The translations under genes and the position numbers were made by a program. From the NCBI RefSeq assembly GCF_009900715.1, contig NZ_JAAAJC010000002.1:1-64000 (forward strand): a stretch of 64,000 bases of DNA, given 5' to 3'. Source of the stretch: Halococcus salsus (GTDB lineage: Archaea; Halobacteriota; Halobacteria; Halobacteriales; Halococcaceae). The notes beneath the pieces are model-generated. The model did not search any database. It saw only the letters and a program-made list of their open reading frames with translations, and was not told the DNA's origin. Shown one piece after another: positions 1 through 62,335 of the stretch (position 1 is the stretch's first letter; each line of letters starts with the position of its first letter).

Positions 1-340
1 GGATGAAGGGCGACGGCGCGAGCGAAGCGAGCGCCGGAGGGCTTTGGCGGAGCGGGTGCGGTAGGCGGTGCGGAGGCGGAGCGGGTGCGGTAGGCGGTGC
101 GGAGGCGGAGCGGGTGCGGTAGGCGGTGCGGAGGCGGAGCGGGTGCGGTAGGCGGTGCGGAGGCGGAGCGGGTGCGGGAGAGAAGTGGTTGTACCGCGAG
201 TGAGCCAAAGGCGAACGAGCGGGCCGAGGAACCCCTGAGCGACTGAAAGGAGCGAGGGGGTGACGACGGCTTTTGATCCACATTTTGCCAGGGAGCGAAC
301 GAAGTGAGCGACCGCAGCAAAAGGTGGGGATGCGAAAGGT
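1..340 (+). repeat. Modular intergenic repeat element, copy A
   Basis: GC-rich gene-free stretch. It opens with a GGATGAAGGGCGA block, continues through a 29-base tandem repeat, then a block around GTGGTTGTACCGCGAG (183 onward), and ends with an imperfect inverted repeat: CCACATTTTGC at 278-288 against GCAAAAGGTGG at 317-327. The same modules recur at about 8860-9043, 61998-62222 (opposite strand) and in part at 50671-50868. It directly follows the 3' end of the minus-strand RNase H gene. No coding potential is seen. Confidence 0.75.
46..177. repeat. 29-bp tandem repeat
   Basis: Four perfect copies of a 29-base unit that begins GGCGGAGCGG lie at 46-74, 75-103, 104-132 and 133-161, followed by a partial fifth copy to about 177. 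The period and absence of spacers make it a simple tandem repeat and not a CRISPR array. It lies inside repeat element copy A. Confidence 0.9.
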
Positions 341-346
341 GGGGTT

Positions 347-967
347 CTAGTCACTCGCGGGCCGGTCGGCGCGCGAGGGCGGCGGGACCTCGTCGCGACC
401 GGCGGGGGTCGGCAGCACGCACCGGGGCGGCTCCTCGTTGACGTGGTGGTACTGCGCCGGCGTGTTGGCGAGCGGGTGGGCGGGGTTCTCGGCGCTCCGG
501 ATACGGGCGACACGGCACTCGCCGAAGCCTCGGAGGCGGGCGCGGATGCCGCGCCAGTGGTGGCGCGAGCGCTCGGGGATCGAGAGCGAGCGGGTCGAGT
601 GACAGCCACCGCGGGTCGCGAGCAGCGCCCGGTTGGCGTTCGCCGCGAGGTCGTCGTGGTCGACGAGCACCCCGACCCGGGCGTCGCCGGGGGCCCTGGC
701 GGCGAGCACGTCGAGCCCGAGGTGGAGCGCGCGGTACTCGGCGACGTTGTTGTCGGGTGCGGTGTCGGGTACCGCGAGGCGGGCGACGCGGTCGCCGCTC
801 CGGGTCTCGATCACCACGCCGAGCCCGCCGGTCCCATCCGAGAGGCGATAGGAGCCGTCGGTGGCGACGTAGAACTCCCGGCGATGCGTCCGCGGTGGGT
901 GGGCGATGTGCGGGGTGGGCGAGTCATCGAAGAGGTCCCGAAGCGCCGGCCGGCCGTATGCGGCCAT
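347..967 (-). CDS. rnhA: RNase HI-like protein
   Basis: 206 aa. Ribonuclease H-fold protein expected to cleave the RNA strand of RNA-DNA hybrids in the cytoplasm. The domain starts near residue 33 with the ATDGSY strand (Asp37), followed by NNVAEYRAL (Glu77) and VLVDHDD (Asp103), three of the four usual acidic catalytic residues. In the final motif, normally N..AD.LA, the sequence reads NPAHPLAN, so His stands where Asp is usual. The first 30 residues and the Pro-rich C-terminus are extensions. An ATTTAA box (minus strand, 992-997) lies about 26 bases upstream of the ATG, consistent with a leaderless transcript. Repeat element copy A follows the stop directly. Confidence 0.85.
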   Translation of the reverse strand: MAAYGRPALRDLFDDSPTPHIAHPPRTHRREFYVATDGSYRLSDGTGGLGVVIETRSGDRVARLAVPDTAPDNNVAEYRALHLGLDVLAARAPGDARVGVLVDHDDLAANANRALLATRGGCHSTRSLSIPERSRHHWRGIRARLRGFGECRVARIRSAENPAHPLANTPAQYHHVNEEPPRCVLPTPAGRDEVPPPSRADRPASD

Positions 968-8859: not shown

Positions 8860-9043
8860 CGGGGGCTTCGGCGGTGCTGTGCGGTGGCGGTTAGTGGTTG
8901 CGGGGGCGGTTAGTGGTTGTACCGCGAGCGAACGGAGTGAGCGGGCCAAGGAACCCCCGAGCGGAGCGAGGGGGTGACGCAGGCTTTTGATCCACATTTT
9001 GCCAGCGAAGGAGCGAAGCGACTGAGCGCAGCAAAAGGTGGGG
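8860..9043 (+). repeat. Modular intergenic repeat element, copy B
   Basis: Shares with copies A and C the GGCTTCGGCGGTGC block, the GTGGTTGTACCGCGAGCG block (8914 onward), the GAACCCCCGAGCGGAGCGAG segment, and the inverted repeat CCACATTTTGC (8992-9002) against GCAAAAGGTGG (9031-9041). It begins about seven bases beyond the 3' end of the minus-strand tRNA-Pro gene, so relative to that gene it lies downstream in the same orientation as copies A and C. Confidence 0.75.
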
Positions 9044-9049
9044 ACTGAA

Positions 9050-9122
9050 TGGGCCGGCGCGAATTCGAATCGCGGTTACGGCCACCCGAAGGCCGAAGGA
9101 TACCAAGCTACCCCACCGGCCC
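9050..9122 (-). tRNA. tRNA-Pro (anticodon CGG)
   Basis: The 73-nt minus-strand sequence folds into a full cloverleaf. The acceptor stem GGGCCGG pairs with CCGGCCC and is followed by discriminator A. The D-arm holds A14, G15, GG and A21. The anticodon stem CGGCC/GGCCG closes the loop TTCGGGT with anticodon CGG, which reads the proline codon CCG. The T-arm is CGCGA-TTCGAAT-TCGCG. CCA is not encoded and no intron is present. Too short for an ORF call. It lies between repeat copy B and the half-size EamA gene. Confidence 0.95.
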
Positions 9123-42091: not shown

Positions 42092-42463
42092 CGGTCATGA
42101 TAGCCATTCACACCGCCGCACGGCACCGACTTAAACCGGCGTGTTGTGACAGATGTTGCTGTGGGCGCGATTCGATAGCATGGTAGGAGATAACGTAGAC
42201 AATTTCGAATTCGATGGTGGACGGTGGCGGTCTGCGGTATTGCGGTTGGCGCGCGGGAGCACGCGGAGCGTGCGACTCGCGCGAGGGATGAACGACGCGA
42301 GGGCGGAGCCCGAGCGGAGTGAATCGGCTGGGGAGGATGTGGCGCGGGGTGGTGCGGTGGCGGGAGCGGTCTCTCGTTTGGAACGGGATTTGCCAACAGC
42401 GAATCAGTCAGCCCAGAAACCAAGGAAAAACGAACAATCGAGAAAAAGGCCGATCCCGGGAAC
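42092..42463. other. Intergenic region with leuA promoter and repeat family 2
   Basis: 372 bases without a gene. The leuA TATA-like box is TTTAA on the minus strand (42130-42136). From 42240 to 42360 the sequence is GC-rich and shares blocks GCGAGGGATGA (42281-42291) and TCGGCTGGGGAGG (42324-42336) with the region at 55316-55382, defining a second intergenic repeat family. Nothing else is seen. Confidence 0.55.
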
Positions 42464-50487: not shown

Positions 50488-50670
50488 ATAGCTTTTACTC
50501 TAGTCGAACCGGCCCGGGTGCGGGAACGGGACGGCCGCGTCGTGGCGGGCGGTAGCGGGGCGGTCGGCCGTGCTGCGGTGCGGTCGCGGTGCGGACGGGT
50601 GCGGTTCCTGGTGTCTCGGCGAGCGCCGAAGGCGCGAGCCGAGGCTCAGGAGAGCGGTGTTCTCCTGGCG

Positions 50671-50868
50671 GATGAAGGGCGAGCGAGGGGAGGTTCGACT
50701 GAAAGGAGGACCTCGGACGCGAACGGGGAGCGGAGCGATCCGTGAGCGCCCGGAGTGAGCGAGGGCTTCGGCGGTGCGGAGGCGGTCGCGGAAAGCGATA
50801 GCGTCCACACGAGCGGAGCGAGTGTGGTTCACCGCGAGCGAGGCGGAGCCGAGCGAGCGGCCCTTTTT
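50671..50868 (+). repeat. Modular intergenic repeat element, partial copy D
   Basis: Shares with copies A and C the GGATGAAGGGCGAGCGAG block (50671 onward) and GAGCGAGGGCTTCGGCGGTGCGGAGG (about 50756-50783, written here as a positional match), then a variant of the CACCGCGAGCG block at 50829-50868. The TTTTGATCCACATTTTGC hairpin module is missing and is replaced by the hairpin array that follows. Confidence 0.5.
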
Positions 50869-50876
50869 AGTCCGCC

Positions 50877-50977
50877 GGAAGACGCGAAGCGTCTTCCGAG
50901 CTGCTCGAAAACGCTTCGCGTTTTCGGCATCGCGAAACGCGGAAAGCGTTTCGAACGACTTCGTTCGCGCTCCGCGC
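50877..50977 (-). repeat. Array of five back-to-back hairpins
   Basis: Consecutive inverted repeats: GGAAGACGC-GAA-GCGTCTTCC (50877-50897), CGAAAACGC-TTC-GCGTTTTCG (50906-50926), CGAAACGC-GGAAA-GCGTTTCG (50933-50953), CGAACG-ACTT-CGTTCG (50952-50967) and GCGC-TCC-GCGC (50967-50977). They lie 17 bases beyond the stop of the minus-strand HAD gene and would be transcribed in its 3' untranslated region. They may act as a terminator or RNA-stability element. Confidence 0.65.
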
Positions 50978-50993
50978 TCACGAAGACAGGTTT

Positions 50994-51653
50994 CTACCTC
51001 GTCGGGTTCGCCATTGGCGAACCGCTCCTCGGTGAAAAGTGGAGGTCCCGGAGACGGTGATCCGCCCGCACGCAGCGACCACGGCGGGTGTGGCCGTGGC
51101 GTTCGAGGTGGACCCCGTCGAGGCCGGCGTTCCAGGCCGCGCCGACGTCGTGTGCGCCGTCGCCGACGAACGCGCCGCGACCCGAGACACCCATCTCGTC
51201 CATCGCGAGTTCGACGGGTGCCGGGTCGGGCTTCCAGCCGATGTCGCCGGTACAGCAGACCACGGTGTCGAAGCGGTCGTCGAGGTCGAGCTGGGCGAGG
51301 ACCGGCTCCGTGAGGTAGCGCTGGCAGTGGGTGACGATCCCGACGGGGACATCGAGGGCATCGAGGAACGCGCGGGCGTCGTCGTGGAGGTAGGTCGCGG
51401 CGGCGCGCTCCGTCGGGTCCTCGACGGCGTGGAGGGTCTCCCAGAACCGTTCGACGTCCACGTTCCACGACCGTATCAGGGCGTTTCGCTGGCCGGCGAG
51501 CCCGTGCCAGAGGATCTCGGCCTCCTGATCGGTGAACGGTCGGTCGAGGCGCTCGCCGACGCGGTCGAGCAGCCGGCGGACGTAACCCGGTTCGACGTCG
51601 ACGAGCGTGCCGTCGAGGTCGCACAGCCAGAAGTCGTACCCGGTGGGGTCCAT
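50994..51653 (-). CDS. HAD-family hydrolase
   Basis: 219 aa. Haloacid dehalogenase-like phosphatase: motif I WLCDLDGTLVDVEPG with the nucleophile Asp near residue 11, motif II in VGIVTHCQR, the Lys of motif III in GWKPDPAPVELAM and motif IV in AFVGDGAHDVGAAWNAG. The helical cap after motif I resembles phosphoglycolate or pyrophosphatase-type enzymes. A GATTTATTC box on the minus strand (51680-51688) precedes the ATG. The C-terminal 20 residues are basic and may be a recent extension into the repeat region. Confidence 0.88.
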   Translation of the reverse strand: MDPTGYDFWLCDLDGTLVDVEPGYVRRLLDRVGERLDRPFTDQEAEILWHGLAGQRNALIRSWNVDVERFWETLHAVEDPTERAAATYLHDDARAFLDALDVPVGIVTHCQRYLTEPVLAQLDLDDRFDTVVCCTGDIGWKPDPAPVELAMDEMGVSGRGAFVGDGAHDVGAAWNAGLDGVHLERHGHTRRGRCVRADHRLRDLHFSPRSGSPMANPTR

Positions 51654-55113: not shown

Positions 55114-55704
55114 TTAACCCTCCCGAAGGTGAGAGAGCGCCGAACCCCGCGATTGAGTCGATCCGCACTGCAAAACACACGATGATGACGACACGAACCC
55201 ACGGAACGGCGCGATTGCTCCGACACAGCCGCCGGCGGTACGGAAGCGGTACGGATGCTGTGGCGCGCGCTCGCGGTCGTGCGCGAGTGAAACGAGCGCC
55301 GACCGCGGACACTGTGCGAGGGATGAGCACCGCAGCGAGCCGAAGGCGAGCGAGGAGCGCAGTCGGCTGGGGAGGCGTGTGGCTGTCGCGGGGCAGTGCG
55401 GTTGCGGTTCTCATTTGTGTCGGGTAAGTGGCGGACGAAGCGGTGCGGGCAAGAGTTGGACGGAGCGGTGCGGACAGGAATGCGGACAGAGCGGTGTGGA
55501 CAGGAATGCGGACAGAGCGGTGTGGACAGGAATGCGGACGAAGCGGTGTGGACAGGAATGCGGTCGAAGCGGTACGGACAGGAGCGCAAAATGACCGACG
55601 AGAAACGACACCGGAGAACCGACGAGAAGCAGCGATCAATATCCAACACTGCCACAACCGTTTCGAGTCGGATGATTTAGGCCACATCACCACCACACCT
55701 CGCT
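55114..55704. other. Gene-free region with repeat family 2 and 26-bp tandem repeat
   Basis: 591 bases between divergent genes. About 55260-55400 is a copy of repeat family 2 (shared blocks GCGAGGGATGA and TCGGCTGGGGAGG with 42281-42336). About 55448-55590 is a 26-base tandem repeat. The last 80 bases lead into the GTG start of the UppS-like gene. ORFs spanning it are repetitive and Arg/Cys-rich, not credible proteins. Confidence 0.6.
55448..55590. repeat. 26-bp tandem repeat
   Basis: The unit ACAGGAATGCGGACAGAGCG plus GTGTGG repeats at 55474-55499 and 55500-55525, with variants at 55526-55551 and 55552-55577, a diverged unit before (55448-55473) and a partial one after. There are no unique spacers, so it is not CRISPR. 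Confidence 0.8.
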
Positions 55705-59987: not shown

Positions 59988-60667
59988 TACCGCTGCTCCA
60001 CGATTTCGCCGGGTCGACGGTCCTGGTCTTCGGCGGCGGCCGGGTCGGCGCGCGGAAGGCCCGCCGGTTCGCGCGCGAGGCGCGGGTCGTGGTCGTGAGC
60101 CCGACGTTCGCGGACGCGGCGTTCGGCGACGTGGAGCGGGTTCGGGCCGCGCCGACCCCCGACGACGTCCCCGAGTGGTTCGACCGGACGAACCCGGCGC
60201 TCGCGGTCGCCGCGACGGACGACGACGACCTCAACGACGCCGTCGCGCGGGCGGCGCGCGAGCGCGGGTGTTTGCTGAATCGGGCGGACCGGAGTCGGAG
60301 GGGGAACGAGTCGGCCGATGGAGCCGCCAGGGGTGAACGGAGCCGCGAGGTGGTCGTGCCCGCGACCGTTCGCGACGACCCGGTGGTGATGGCGGTCGCC
60401 ACGGGCGGGCGGAGCCCGGCGCTGAGTCGCTACCTCCGCGAGCGCTTCGAGACGGAGTTCGCGGGCGCGGGTGCGATGGCGGACCTCACGGGCGAGATCC
60501 GAACGGAGCTCCGCGACCGATATCCACCCGAAAAACGGCGGGCGGCGGTCCGGGCGGTGGTCCGGTCCGATCGGGTTTGGAAGGCTTTAGGTGACTCAAG
60601 CACCAACGCAAAGCAAGAGGCACATTCAGTGATCTGCGATATGCTCTCGGGAGGTGGCGGTCGATGA
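59984..60667 (+). CDS. Precorrin-2 dehydrogenase/sirohydrochlorin ferrochelatase-like
   Basis: 227 aa. Siroheme-synthase N-terminal fold: Rossmann motif LVFGGGRVGARKARR (residues 13-28), LAVAATDDDDLNDAV, the loop GCLLNRADRS, and the MAVATGGRSPALSRYLR segment. It oxidises precorrin-2 with NAD+ and may insert iron. The first 20 residues are typical (IPLLHDFAGSTV). Its ATG overlaps the decarboxylase stop, and its stop overlaps the hemA ATG, so the three are one operon. Confidence 0.9.
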   Translation: MIPLLHDFAGSTVLVFGGGRVGARKARRFAREARVVVVSPTFADAAFGDVERVRAAPTPDDVPEWFDRTNPALAVAATDDDDLNDAVARAARERGCLLNRADRSRRGNESADGAARGERSREVVVPATVRDDPVVMAVATGGRSPALSRYLRERFETEFAGAGAMADLTGEIRTELRDRYPPEKRRAAVRAVVRSDRVWKALGDSSTNAKQEAHSVICDMLSGGGGR

Positions 60668-61995
60668 CGGTGGCTACCGGCGTGATCTCGGGCGTAAGCC
60701 TCGCCCACGGCACCGCGAGCGTCGAGCAGATCGAGGCCGCGTGCGTGGCGGACGACCACGCCGCCGTCGAGGCGCTGCTGGCGCACGACGGGGTTCGGGA
60801 GGCAGTCTGCCTCCAGACTTGCAACCGGTTCGAGGTCTACGTGGTCTCCGACGACCCCGAGCGGGGTCGCGAGGTGGTCACCTCGGTGGTCGAGGAGTTC
60901 CCCGACGAGGCGGTCGTCGACCTGAGCCACGAGGAGAGCCTGCGCCACCTCATGCGGGTCGCGTGCGGGCTCGAATCGCTCGTGCTCGGCGAGGACCAGA
61001 TCCTCGGCCAGGTCCGCGAGGCCTACACGGCCGCGCGGTCGGTTGGCGGCATCGGGCCGGTCCTCGAAGAGGCGATCGAGAAGGCGATCCACGTCGGCGA
61101 GCGCGCCCGCACTGAAACGGAGATCGGCGAGGGCGTGGTCTCGCTCGGCAGCGCCGCCGTCGAACTCGCTGCCGACGAGCGCTCGCTGGCCGAGGCCACC
61201 GGACTGGTGATCGGCGCGGGCGAGATGGGGACCATCGCCGCCCAGTCGCTCGCCCGGTCGCTCGACCGACTGCTCGTCGCCAACCGCACCGAGGCGAACG
61301 CGGCGCACGTCGCCGACCAGGTCGAGACCGACGCCGCGGCGGTCGCGCTCGACGAGCTCCCCGACGCGCTCGCGGTAGCCGACGTGGTGGTTTCGGCGAC
61401 CGGCAGCCCGAACCTCGTCGTCGACGCGGCCGACCTCGACGCCGCCGGCGAGACGCTCTTCATCGACATCGCCCAGCCCCGCGACGCACCCGCCGCCGCC
61501 GCCGACCTCGACAACGTCGACCTCCGCGACCTCGACGCGCTCGAATCGGTGACGGACGAGACCCGCGAGCGCCGTCGCGAGGCCGCCGCCCGGGTCGAGG
61601 CCATGATCGACCGGGAGTTCGACCACCTGCTCGCCCACTACAAGCGCGCCCGCGCCGACGAGGTCATCGCGTCGATGTACGAGAACGCCGAGCGGATGAA
61701 ACACCGCGAGCTCTCGCGCGCGGTCTCGAAGCTCGAGGCCGACGGCCTCACCGACGACCAGCGCGCGGTGGTCGAGTCGCTCGCCGACACACTGGTGAGC
61801 CAGCTCCTCGCCGCCCCCACGAAGAGCCTCCGGGACGCCGCCGAGGCCGACGACTGGACCACCATCAACAGTGCGCTCCGGCTGTTCGACCCCTCCTTCG
61901 ACGGACCGAGCATCCCCGAACCCGAGACCACCGAGGTCTCCGCCGAGACCCGCCACGCGCTCGCGACCGCGGTCCGCGAGCACCTCGACGACTAA
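60664..61995 (+). CDS. hemA: Glutamyl-tRNA reductase
   Basis: 443 aa. First committed step of tetrapyrrole synthesis: reduces glutamyl-tRNA to glutamate-1-semialdehyde. The active-site Cys is in VCLQTCNRFEVYVVS (about residue 50). SLVLGEDQILGQVREAY and the NADPH motif VIGAGEMGTIAAQSLARS follow, then the helical dimerisation tail. ATG at 60664 overlaps the preceding stop (ATGA). It is followed at once by repeat element copy C. Partner hemL is not in the window. Confidence 0.95.
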   Translation: MTVATGVISGVSLAHGTASVEQIEAACVADDHAAVEALLAHDGVREAVCLQTCNRFEVYVVSDDPERGREVVTSVVEEFPDEAVVDLSHEESLRHLMRVACGLESLVLGEDQILGQVREAYTAARSVGGIGPVLEEAIEKAIHVGERARTETEIGEGVVSLGSAAVELAADERSLAEATGLVIGAGEMGTIAAQSLARSLDRLLVANRTEANAAHVADQVETDAAAVALDELPDALAVADVVVSATGSPNLVVDAADLDAAGETLFIDIAQPRDAPAAAADLDNVDLRDLDALESVTDETRERRREAAARVEAMIDREFDHLLAHYKRARADEVIASMYENAERMKHRELSRAVSKLEADGLTDDQRAVVESLADTLVSQLLAAPTKSLRDAAEADDWTTINSALRLFDPSFDGPSIPEPETTEVSAETRHALATAVREHLDD

Positions 61996-61997
61996 AC

Positions 61998-62222
61998 CCC
62001 ACCTTTTGCTGCGCTTCGCTCGCTAGCGCTCGCTTCGCTGGCAAAATGTGGATCAAAAGCGCGTCGGGTTCCCTCCGGTCACCCTCGCGCCCGCTCACTC
62101 ACTTCGTTCGTTCACGGTACAACCACTATCGTCCCGCATCCGCAAGCCGCACCGCTGACCACCTCCGTACCGCAACCGCACCGCCGAAGCCCTCGCTCAC
62201 TCCGTTCGCTCGCCCTTCATCC
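61998..62222 (-). repeat. Modular intergenic repeat element, copy C
   Basis: Opposite orientation to copies A and B on the chromosome, but the same relative to the upstream gene: it starts three bases after the hemA stop. Order from hemA: CCACCTTTTGC (61999-62009) pairing with GCAAAATGTGG (62041-62051) around a GC-rich loop that is itself palindromic; then the reverse complement of the GTGGTTGTACCG block (about 62117-62130); then the reverse complement of the GGATGAAGGGC block (to 62222). About 113 bases of CCGCACCG-rich sequence follow, up to the gene at 62336. Confidence 0.75.
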
Positions 62223-62335
62223 ACCAGGGACGCAACCACCCCGCCACCGCATCCGTCCGCACCGCGACCGCACCGCCGCCGCACCGCAACCGCTGTGCCG
62301 CAACGCTTTCGCCGAACCGGAAGCGAGGGGTCGTC

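Follow-up and report, generated by a model that had tools for sequence, protein, structure and literature searches.

An apparently undescribed family of structured extragenic repeats dispersed at gene boundaries in Halobacteria

Copies of the element in the window

The stretch of DNA analyzed here (the window, C2:1-64000, 64,000 nucleotides) belongs to a Halococcus draft genome of 3.52 Mb, hereafter G000. It carries three copies of a modular element, each of which turns its terminal hairpin, P3, towards the 3' end of a gene (encoding an RNase H-like protein, tRNA-Pro and HemA, respectively), together with a longer fourth member and two more distant relatives (Table 1). The three copies, with their modules, order and orientation, were recovered where the first-pass annotation of this DNA had placed them: the P3 arms CCACATTTTGC/CCACCTTTTGC were found in each copy (8 matches against 1.06 expected), and GTGGTTGTACCGCGA was located in all three, at 185, 8913 and 62112. 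A distance of 20 nt separates the P3 end of copy 1 from the stop codon of the RNase H-like gene (347-967).

Table 1. Members of the element family and adjoining genes in the window.
Feature	Position	Strand	Details
Copy 1	1..331	+	5' domain A 1-50; GCGG-rich tandem ~50-184; core 193-327
Copy 1, hairpin P1	192..222	+	CCGC-GA..GA-GCGG
Copy 1, hairpin P2	223..270	+	Module type A, CCGAGGAACCCC..GGGGGTGACGACGGC
Copy 1, T tract, GATC, hairpin P3	269..327	+	P3 arms 278-288 / 317-327
RNase H-like gene (RVT_3)	347..967	-	3' end towards copy 1
Copy 2	8861..9043	+	Partial 5' domain A 8861-8874; core 8921-9041; P3 arms 8992-9002 / 9031-9041
tRNA-Pro(CGG)	9050..9122	-	3' end towards copy 2
Diverged relative of 5' domain B	about 42249..42388	+	Ends GCGGTCTCTCGTTTGGAACGGGA
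Fourth, longer member	50607..51042	+	5' domains A' and A 50607-50774; P1-type hairpin 50831-50866
Relative built on 5' domain B	55262..55424	+	Ends GCGGTTCTCATTTGTGTCGGG
hemA (glutamyl-tRNA reductase)	60664..61995	+	Stop codon 3 nt from copy 3
Copy 3	61999..62225	-	Core 61999-62118; 5' domain A 62181-62225; P3 arms 61999-62009 / 62041-62051

The left side of copy 1 is truncated by the contig end. Position 1 coincides exactly with the GGATGAAGGGCGA module of this copy, and an assembly break at the repeat probably explains why the contig starts inside it. The tandem of copy 1 is made of four 32-bp GCGG-rich units, and similar GCGG-rich tracts of differing length lie to the left of most copies. 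The longer member has the T-rich end of class II (defined below), running from TTTTTAGTCC at 50861 to GAAAAGTGG near 51042, as well as large extra hairpins, and a minus-strand HAD-hydrolase frame extends into it. The relative at 55262-55424 was counted with the family because domain B is elsewhere joined to class I or class II ends.

Modular anatomy and conserved fold

Read on its purine-rich strand, the element is composed of a GCGG-rich tract, a 5' domain of type A (CCTGGYGGATGAAGGGCGA, a hairpin and GAGGGCTTCGGCGG) or type B (GACACTGTGCGAGGGATGAGC, a hairpin and CAGTCGGCTGGGGAGG), the hairpin P1 (CCGC-GA..GA-GCGG), in class I the hairpin P2, then a T tract, GATC and the hairpin P3. Class I copies contain one P2 module out of three alternatives and a P3 of the form GCTTTTGATCCACATTTTGC..GCAAAAGGTGG. 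In class II, which replaces class I at orthologous genes in other Halococcus species, P3 is TTTTTAGTCCAGGTTTTTG..AAAAAAGTGG. The core with its three hairpins measures 109-181 bp and the whole element, which includes three or more helices and no ORF, 125-350 bp. P1, P2 and P3 are connected by invariant single-stranded segments. Within the stems, Watson-Crick pairs alternate with tandem G.A pairs, which form regular 2-by-2 internal loops in the structures predicted for the three copies of the window, and GNA triloops close most of the hairpins. The modular layout read earlier from the window, with a conserved stem and a variable loop, is borne out by these comparisons. Both strands have invariant T tracts, whose lengths vary in concert, being 4,4,4 in 172 of 231 cases and 5,5,5-7 in 48.

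Base pairing is maintained by compensatory changes. We counted 52 compensatory cells in an alignment of 40 sequences against 15.2 in shuffles, and 129 against 27.6 in a class-wide alignment of 70 sequences that was fitted to the covariance model. In both cases none of 500 shuffles reached the observed value, and slid registers on the larger alignment gave at most 24 cells. A pair of P3 that is C-G in Halococcus becomes G-C or A-U elsewhere (27/10/3 in the 40-sequence and 20/35/12 in the 70-sequence alignment). The suggestion that structure is under selection, previously based on the window copies, is thereby supported at the scale of the class.

The purine strand is the one that folds, as deduced from a strand-neutral test on the variable hairpins in which G.A mismatches largely exceeded C.T (180 versus 3) and G.T exceeded A.C (16 versus 5). 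For copy 1, the folding energy was -60.4 kcal/mol on the purine strand (z -5.2) versus -43.1 on the other (z -2.6). This strand is antisense to the gene adjoining P3. A 3'-UTR structure of that gene, one of the functions initially proposed, was rejected because the conserved fold lies on the opposite strand.

The wobble excess leans weakly towards folding as RNA rather than as single-stranded DNA. It would suit a cis-acting structured RNA transcribed from the purine strand (riboswitch-like, RNA-stabilising or antisense), a reading that we regard as unlikely. Such an RNA could perhaps build a U.A-U triple helix from its A tract and two T tracts, which the concerted tract lengths (4/4/4 or 5/5/5-7) would fit, but independent changes of tract length are few, and no promoter box was seen by eye in the element.

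Abundance and distribution

A search of G000 with the 20-mer GCTTTTGATCCACATTTTGC, allowing up to two mismatches, gave 49 occurrences, versus 0 for the reversed control, and the same element is present in the named relatives H. thailandensis and H. morrhuae. At a threshold of E<=0.001, R1, a covariance model of 125 core positions, matched 248 of the 292 genomes of Halobacteria searched. As the weak ones can be lone P1-like hairpins, we considered separately the strong matches (best E about 1e-9 or lower), which cover about 50 of 77 genera and nine families as read from the results table. When 26 genomes of 26 genera were run again, all matched at E<=1e-8, nearly all at full length. Because few candidates were scored in each genome, the copy numbers from these searches across the class are lower bounds. 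The first-pass annotation knew three to four copies; the searches with the hairpin motif and the covariance model raise this number to 49 in the genome and extend the conserved structure to the class.

No R1 match was obtained at 1e-7 among about 100 genomes of the other classes of the phylum (in a sample of 120 genomes), and 264 kb of non-haloarchaeal DNA containing a chance 19-mer scored at most 15 bits. Four 19-mer matches in viral contigs were due to chance, and phage records gave none. No Rfam 15 family matched at the element, whether by gathering score or by E-value, and we found no description of it in the open-access literature searched by sequence string and by topic. The element thus apparently represents a large, undescribed family of dispersed repeats present in most genera of the Halobacteria.

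The 5' module is found in 39-75 copies in each of ten Halococcus genomes, which differ only in the class of the right end. With this module numerous in all ten, a recent burst of copies in two species is ruled out.

Position relative to genes

Forty-eight copies of G000 have an intact end hairpin. In 30 of them, a gene oriented towards the P3 end has its stop codon there; in seven, P3 lies at the 3' end of a tRNA or SRP RNA; ten point towards a gene start and one is unclear. Neighbours were assigned by eye on gene calls from a codon-usage script, some tRNAs being recognised by their 3' sequence alone. A proportion of 37 gene 3' ends among the 47 classifiable P3 ends is higher than one half (p=5e-5) and than the 0.37 expected by intergenic length (p=7.5e-9), whereas the left side of the element is near random (25:20). 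The enrichment at gene 3' ends in one orientation, noticed on the window copies, therefore holds for the genome; orientation relative to genes is not random and compensatory changes are not absent from the stems. The initial wording that the hairpin always adjoins a gene 3' end has to be limited to 37 of the 48 intact copies, the ten at gene starts contradicting it.

When all genera were taken together, 53 stop codons were called at 40 nt or less, 38 of which lie 0-7 nt from the P3 end. Gene starts beside P3, when near, are usually 31-47 nt away, which is about the length of a basal promoter. The P3 end is therefore located about as close to its neighbour as this neighbour allows. Other families exhibit the same placement of P3 at 3' ends, for instance at tRNA-Pro and SRP RNA, and tRNA-Pro(CGG), in particular, has a copy beside it in several Halococcus species and also in a second family (L296).

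Several individual sites recur between distant genomes. The 3' end of the SRP RNA gene is abutted by the element in Halococcus and in another family (L003, L291), and in G000 a second copy points at the 5' side of this gene too. The same gene (product ending in ..ETTGAEPKY or similar) has the element behind its stop codon at six loci (L056, L068, L090, L223, L253, L256), an orthologous placement that is conserved between genera and was seen in at least five genomes. At three others, from two families (L294, L297, L300), it abuts the same conserved sequence ..GTACGCCCGGAACACTAACGACCGAC.., which has no Rfam match and is possibly an unannotated RNA or gene end.

In three Natrialbaceae genera (L208, L236, L252) the element is located between a trpE-like gene and trpG, in sense orientation, and its P3 arm ends in the TTG start codon (annotated or apparent) of trpG. 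A translational control element is possible at these loci, and the conserved gene order, together with the overlap of the P3 arm and the trpG start, agrees with the structured-RNA reading introduced above. The near-random orientation of left neighbours argues against that reading, since the purine strand would often be left without transcription.

Fixed sites and exchanged hairpins

We could pair 34 sites between G000 and its sister G002, with a median identity of 94% in the flanking DNA. The P3 insert was identical at two of these sites, for about one expected from random dealing, and 16 of the G002 inserts were found at other G000 sites, so that 32 of the 34 sites have been dealt anew. The type of P2 module differed in half of the typed pairs (14/28). 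The swapped hairpins stay self-complementary. A related element was present in G002 at each of the 14 G000 sites tested, and the Halococcus copies are flanked by fixed housekeeping genes. Between these sister species, the sites are thus fixed and their content has been reshuffled. In these polyploid archaea, the reshuffling would be explained by ectopic gene conversion from one dispersed copy to another.

The situation differs in Natrialbaceae, where identical copies of about 170 bp occur between unrelated flanks (genomes G263, G176 and G175), mostly away from gene ends. Their presence at unrelated places indicates that the unit can reach other sites. Such copies would be expected from a selfish, non-autonomous mobile element of the PATE, MITE or REP kind, whose folded strand (single-stranded DNA or RNA) would be the substrate of an enzyme acting in trans and whose copies beyond gene ends would be those spared by purifying selection. 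We consider this explanation possible but rather doubtful. It is also consistent with the dispersal of a unit devoid of ORF and with a P3 end that comes as near its neighbours as those permit. However, random insertion followed by selection leaves the difference between the two sides unexplained (37:10 at P3 vs 25:20 on the left), and the Halococcus sites are old and shared, as seen in G002. Mobility, one of the possibilities raised at the outset, is thus supported by the identical Natrialbaceae copies but not by Halococcus, in which only the content of old, fixed sites moves.

The flanks of 27 copies were compared for terminal inverted repeats of the MITE type, which were clear at L246 alone and are not a consistent feature. 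We did not find a transposase linked to the element: G000 contains a single Y1 gene, followed by a TnpB-like frame, with no copy beside it, and the link expected for a REP-associated Y1 transposase (RAYT) was thus not encountered. An IS200/IS605 origin was rejected, this Y1 gene being unlinked to any copy.

Cassette-exchange sites in Natrialbaceae

A search for empty sites with joined flanks retrieved none; instead, one Natrialbaceae site (L245) was found filled by differing cassettes. This site and its homologues (L346-L359) have constant borders, ..GATCA|GTATAGG and GCACGTGTAGTGTCC.., with wholly different DNA between them. Depending on the genome, the interval is occupied by a class I or a class II-like element, by other elements with hairpins, or by small ORFs. 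The locus has the appearance of a cassette-exchange site, and since its contents differ, part of the spread in Natrialbaceae corresponds to cassette exchange at an old site. At five other loci (L366, L367, L370, L373, L375), units of 168-898 nt are located between direct 21-bp sites GTAGTTRCCGTTCAGTACAGG. Most of these units enclose a single ORF (for a DUF2270 membrane protein, a DUF7344 protein or an unknown product), and one contains the structured element alone. Their arrangement is reminiscent of gene cassettes of the integron or pdif type, and in Natrialbaceae the element is also found as one sort of cassette at a site of integron-like exchange.

Integron attC sites are located after stop codons in a fixed orientation, fold on the bottom strand and have variable hairpins. 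Most copies of our element, not all, likewise fold on the bottom strand right after a stop codon. An attC-like site of single-strand recombination, with hypervariable terminal hairpins, would agree with the position, the orientation and the folded strand, with the exchange of content at fixed sites and with the Natrialbaceae element being one of several cassettes. We nevertheless judge this explanation very improbable. The Halococcus copies are single and fixed at housekeeping genes, which are not cassettes, without a cassette array or an integrase at the sites, and the element is larger, with several helices. The 21-bp borders of Natrialbaceae were not seen at Halococcus copies, and a scan of ten proteins encoded at the Natrialbaceae loci revealed no recombinase.

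Discussion

The element shares traits with several known systems. Like the REP/BIME sequences of bacteria, it is dispersed, extragenic, imperfectly palindromic and often near stop codons; many REPs of E. coli are located within 15 nt of a stop codon (PMC12306157). REPs are given as 20-40 bp long in one source (PMC3733652), whereas our element measures 125-350 bp and displays at least three helices, tandem G.A stems and invariant linkers instead of one short hairpin. The PATEs and SMRs of Haloquadratum are likewise short, noncoding palindromic repeats of haloarchaea without their own transposase (PMC3119063). PATEs are described as near-terminal palindromes related to IS605 transposons, with strain-specific insertions (PMC3119063); by this description they differ from our element, whose sites are conserved and for which the link with IS605, sought via the Y1 gene, was not found. 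Haloarchaeal oligo-T terminators also place a T tract just after the gene (PMC7237163), but there the tract suffices, whereas in our element it forms part of an extensive conserved fold of the opposite strand. The element works like REPs and oligo-T terminators and shares the geometry of attC sites, but it departs from REPs and attC sites in defining traits and is at most a probable terminator. We therefore regard it as a new family of extragenic, structured repeats that resembles each of them.

The interpretation that we favor, to which we give an even chance, is that of dispersed structured elements of gene boundaries, homogenised by recombination, in which the T tract of P3 ends the transcription of the neighbour and the other strand ends opposing transcripts. 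On the sense strand of the neighbour, P3 sets an oligo-T tract about 8-12 nt downstream of the stop codon, or immediately past the 3' end of a tRNA or SRP RNA, and would thus act as its terminator. On the opposite strand, the stable hairpins P1 and P2 followed by two T tracts would form a terminator for transcripts coming from the other side. Transcript 3' ends would then be expected in CCACCTTTTGC / CCACTTTTTTAC on the strand of the neighbour and past CTTTTGATC on the opposite one. The modules would be shuffled by ectopic recombination or by gene conversion, and rarer transposition or cassette exchange would found new sites.

An oligo-T tract, CNACCTTTTGC or CCACTTTTTTAC, mostly begins 0-7 nt after the stop codon, and T4+ is present within 60 nt of all ten called genes that end near an element versus 54 of 380 others. 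In Haloferax volcanii, a T5C tract terminates 95% of transcripts (PMC7237163). Termination at the element thus probably takes place on both strands, as judged from its sequence. The terminator function put forward in the first-pass annotation gains from the T tracts found right after stop codons on both strands, while remaining a reading of sequence.

Some observations count against a terminator. Ten of the 48 copies are turned towards the start of a gene, and some copies separate divergent genes, which need none. The invariant P1/P2 segments and the long 5' domain exceed what an oligo-T terminator requires, and the tracts of class I are just T4. The identical Natrialbaceae copies are also mostly away from gene ends. 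One could further imagine an ancient antisense-folding element, fixed at a short distance behind stop codons and the ends of tRNAs and SRP RNA, that sets transcript boundaries on both strands and whose modules are exchanged by a dedicated recombination system, as at the Natrialbaceae cassette site, a combination that we find decidedly unlikely.

The near-total swap of hairpins at fixed sites between sister species constitutes a natural experiment in structure-preserving recombination. The element may also contaminate the annotation of haloarchaeal repeats, palindromes and RNAs. With about 50 genera concerned and 49 class I copies in one genome, it would rank among the more abundant noncoding features of haloarchaea, and if it sets transcript ends, archaeal termination gains a structured, genome-wide cis element.
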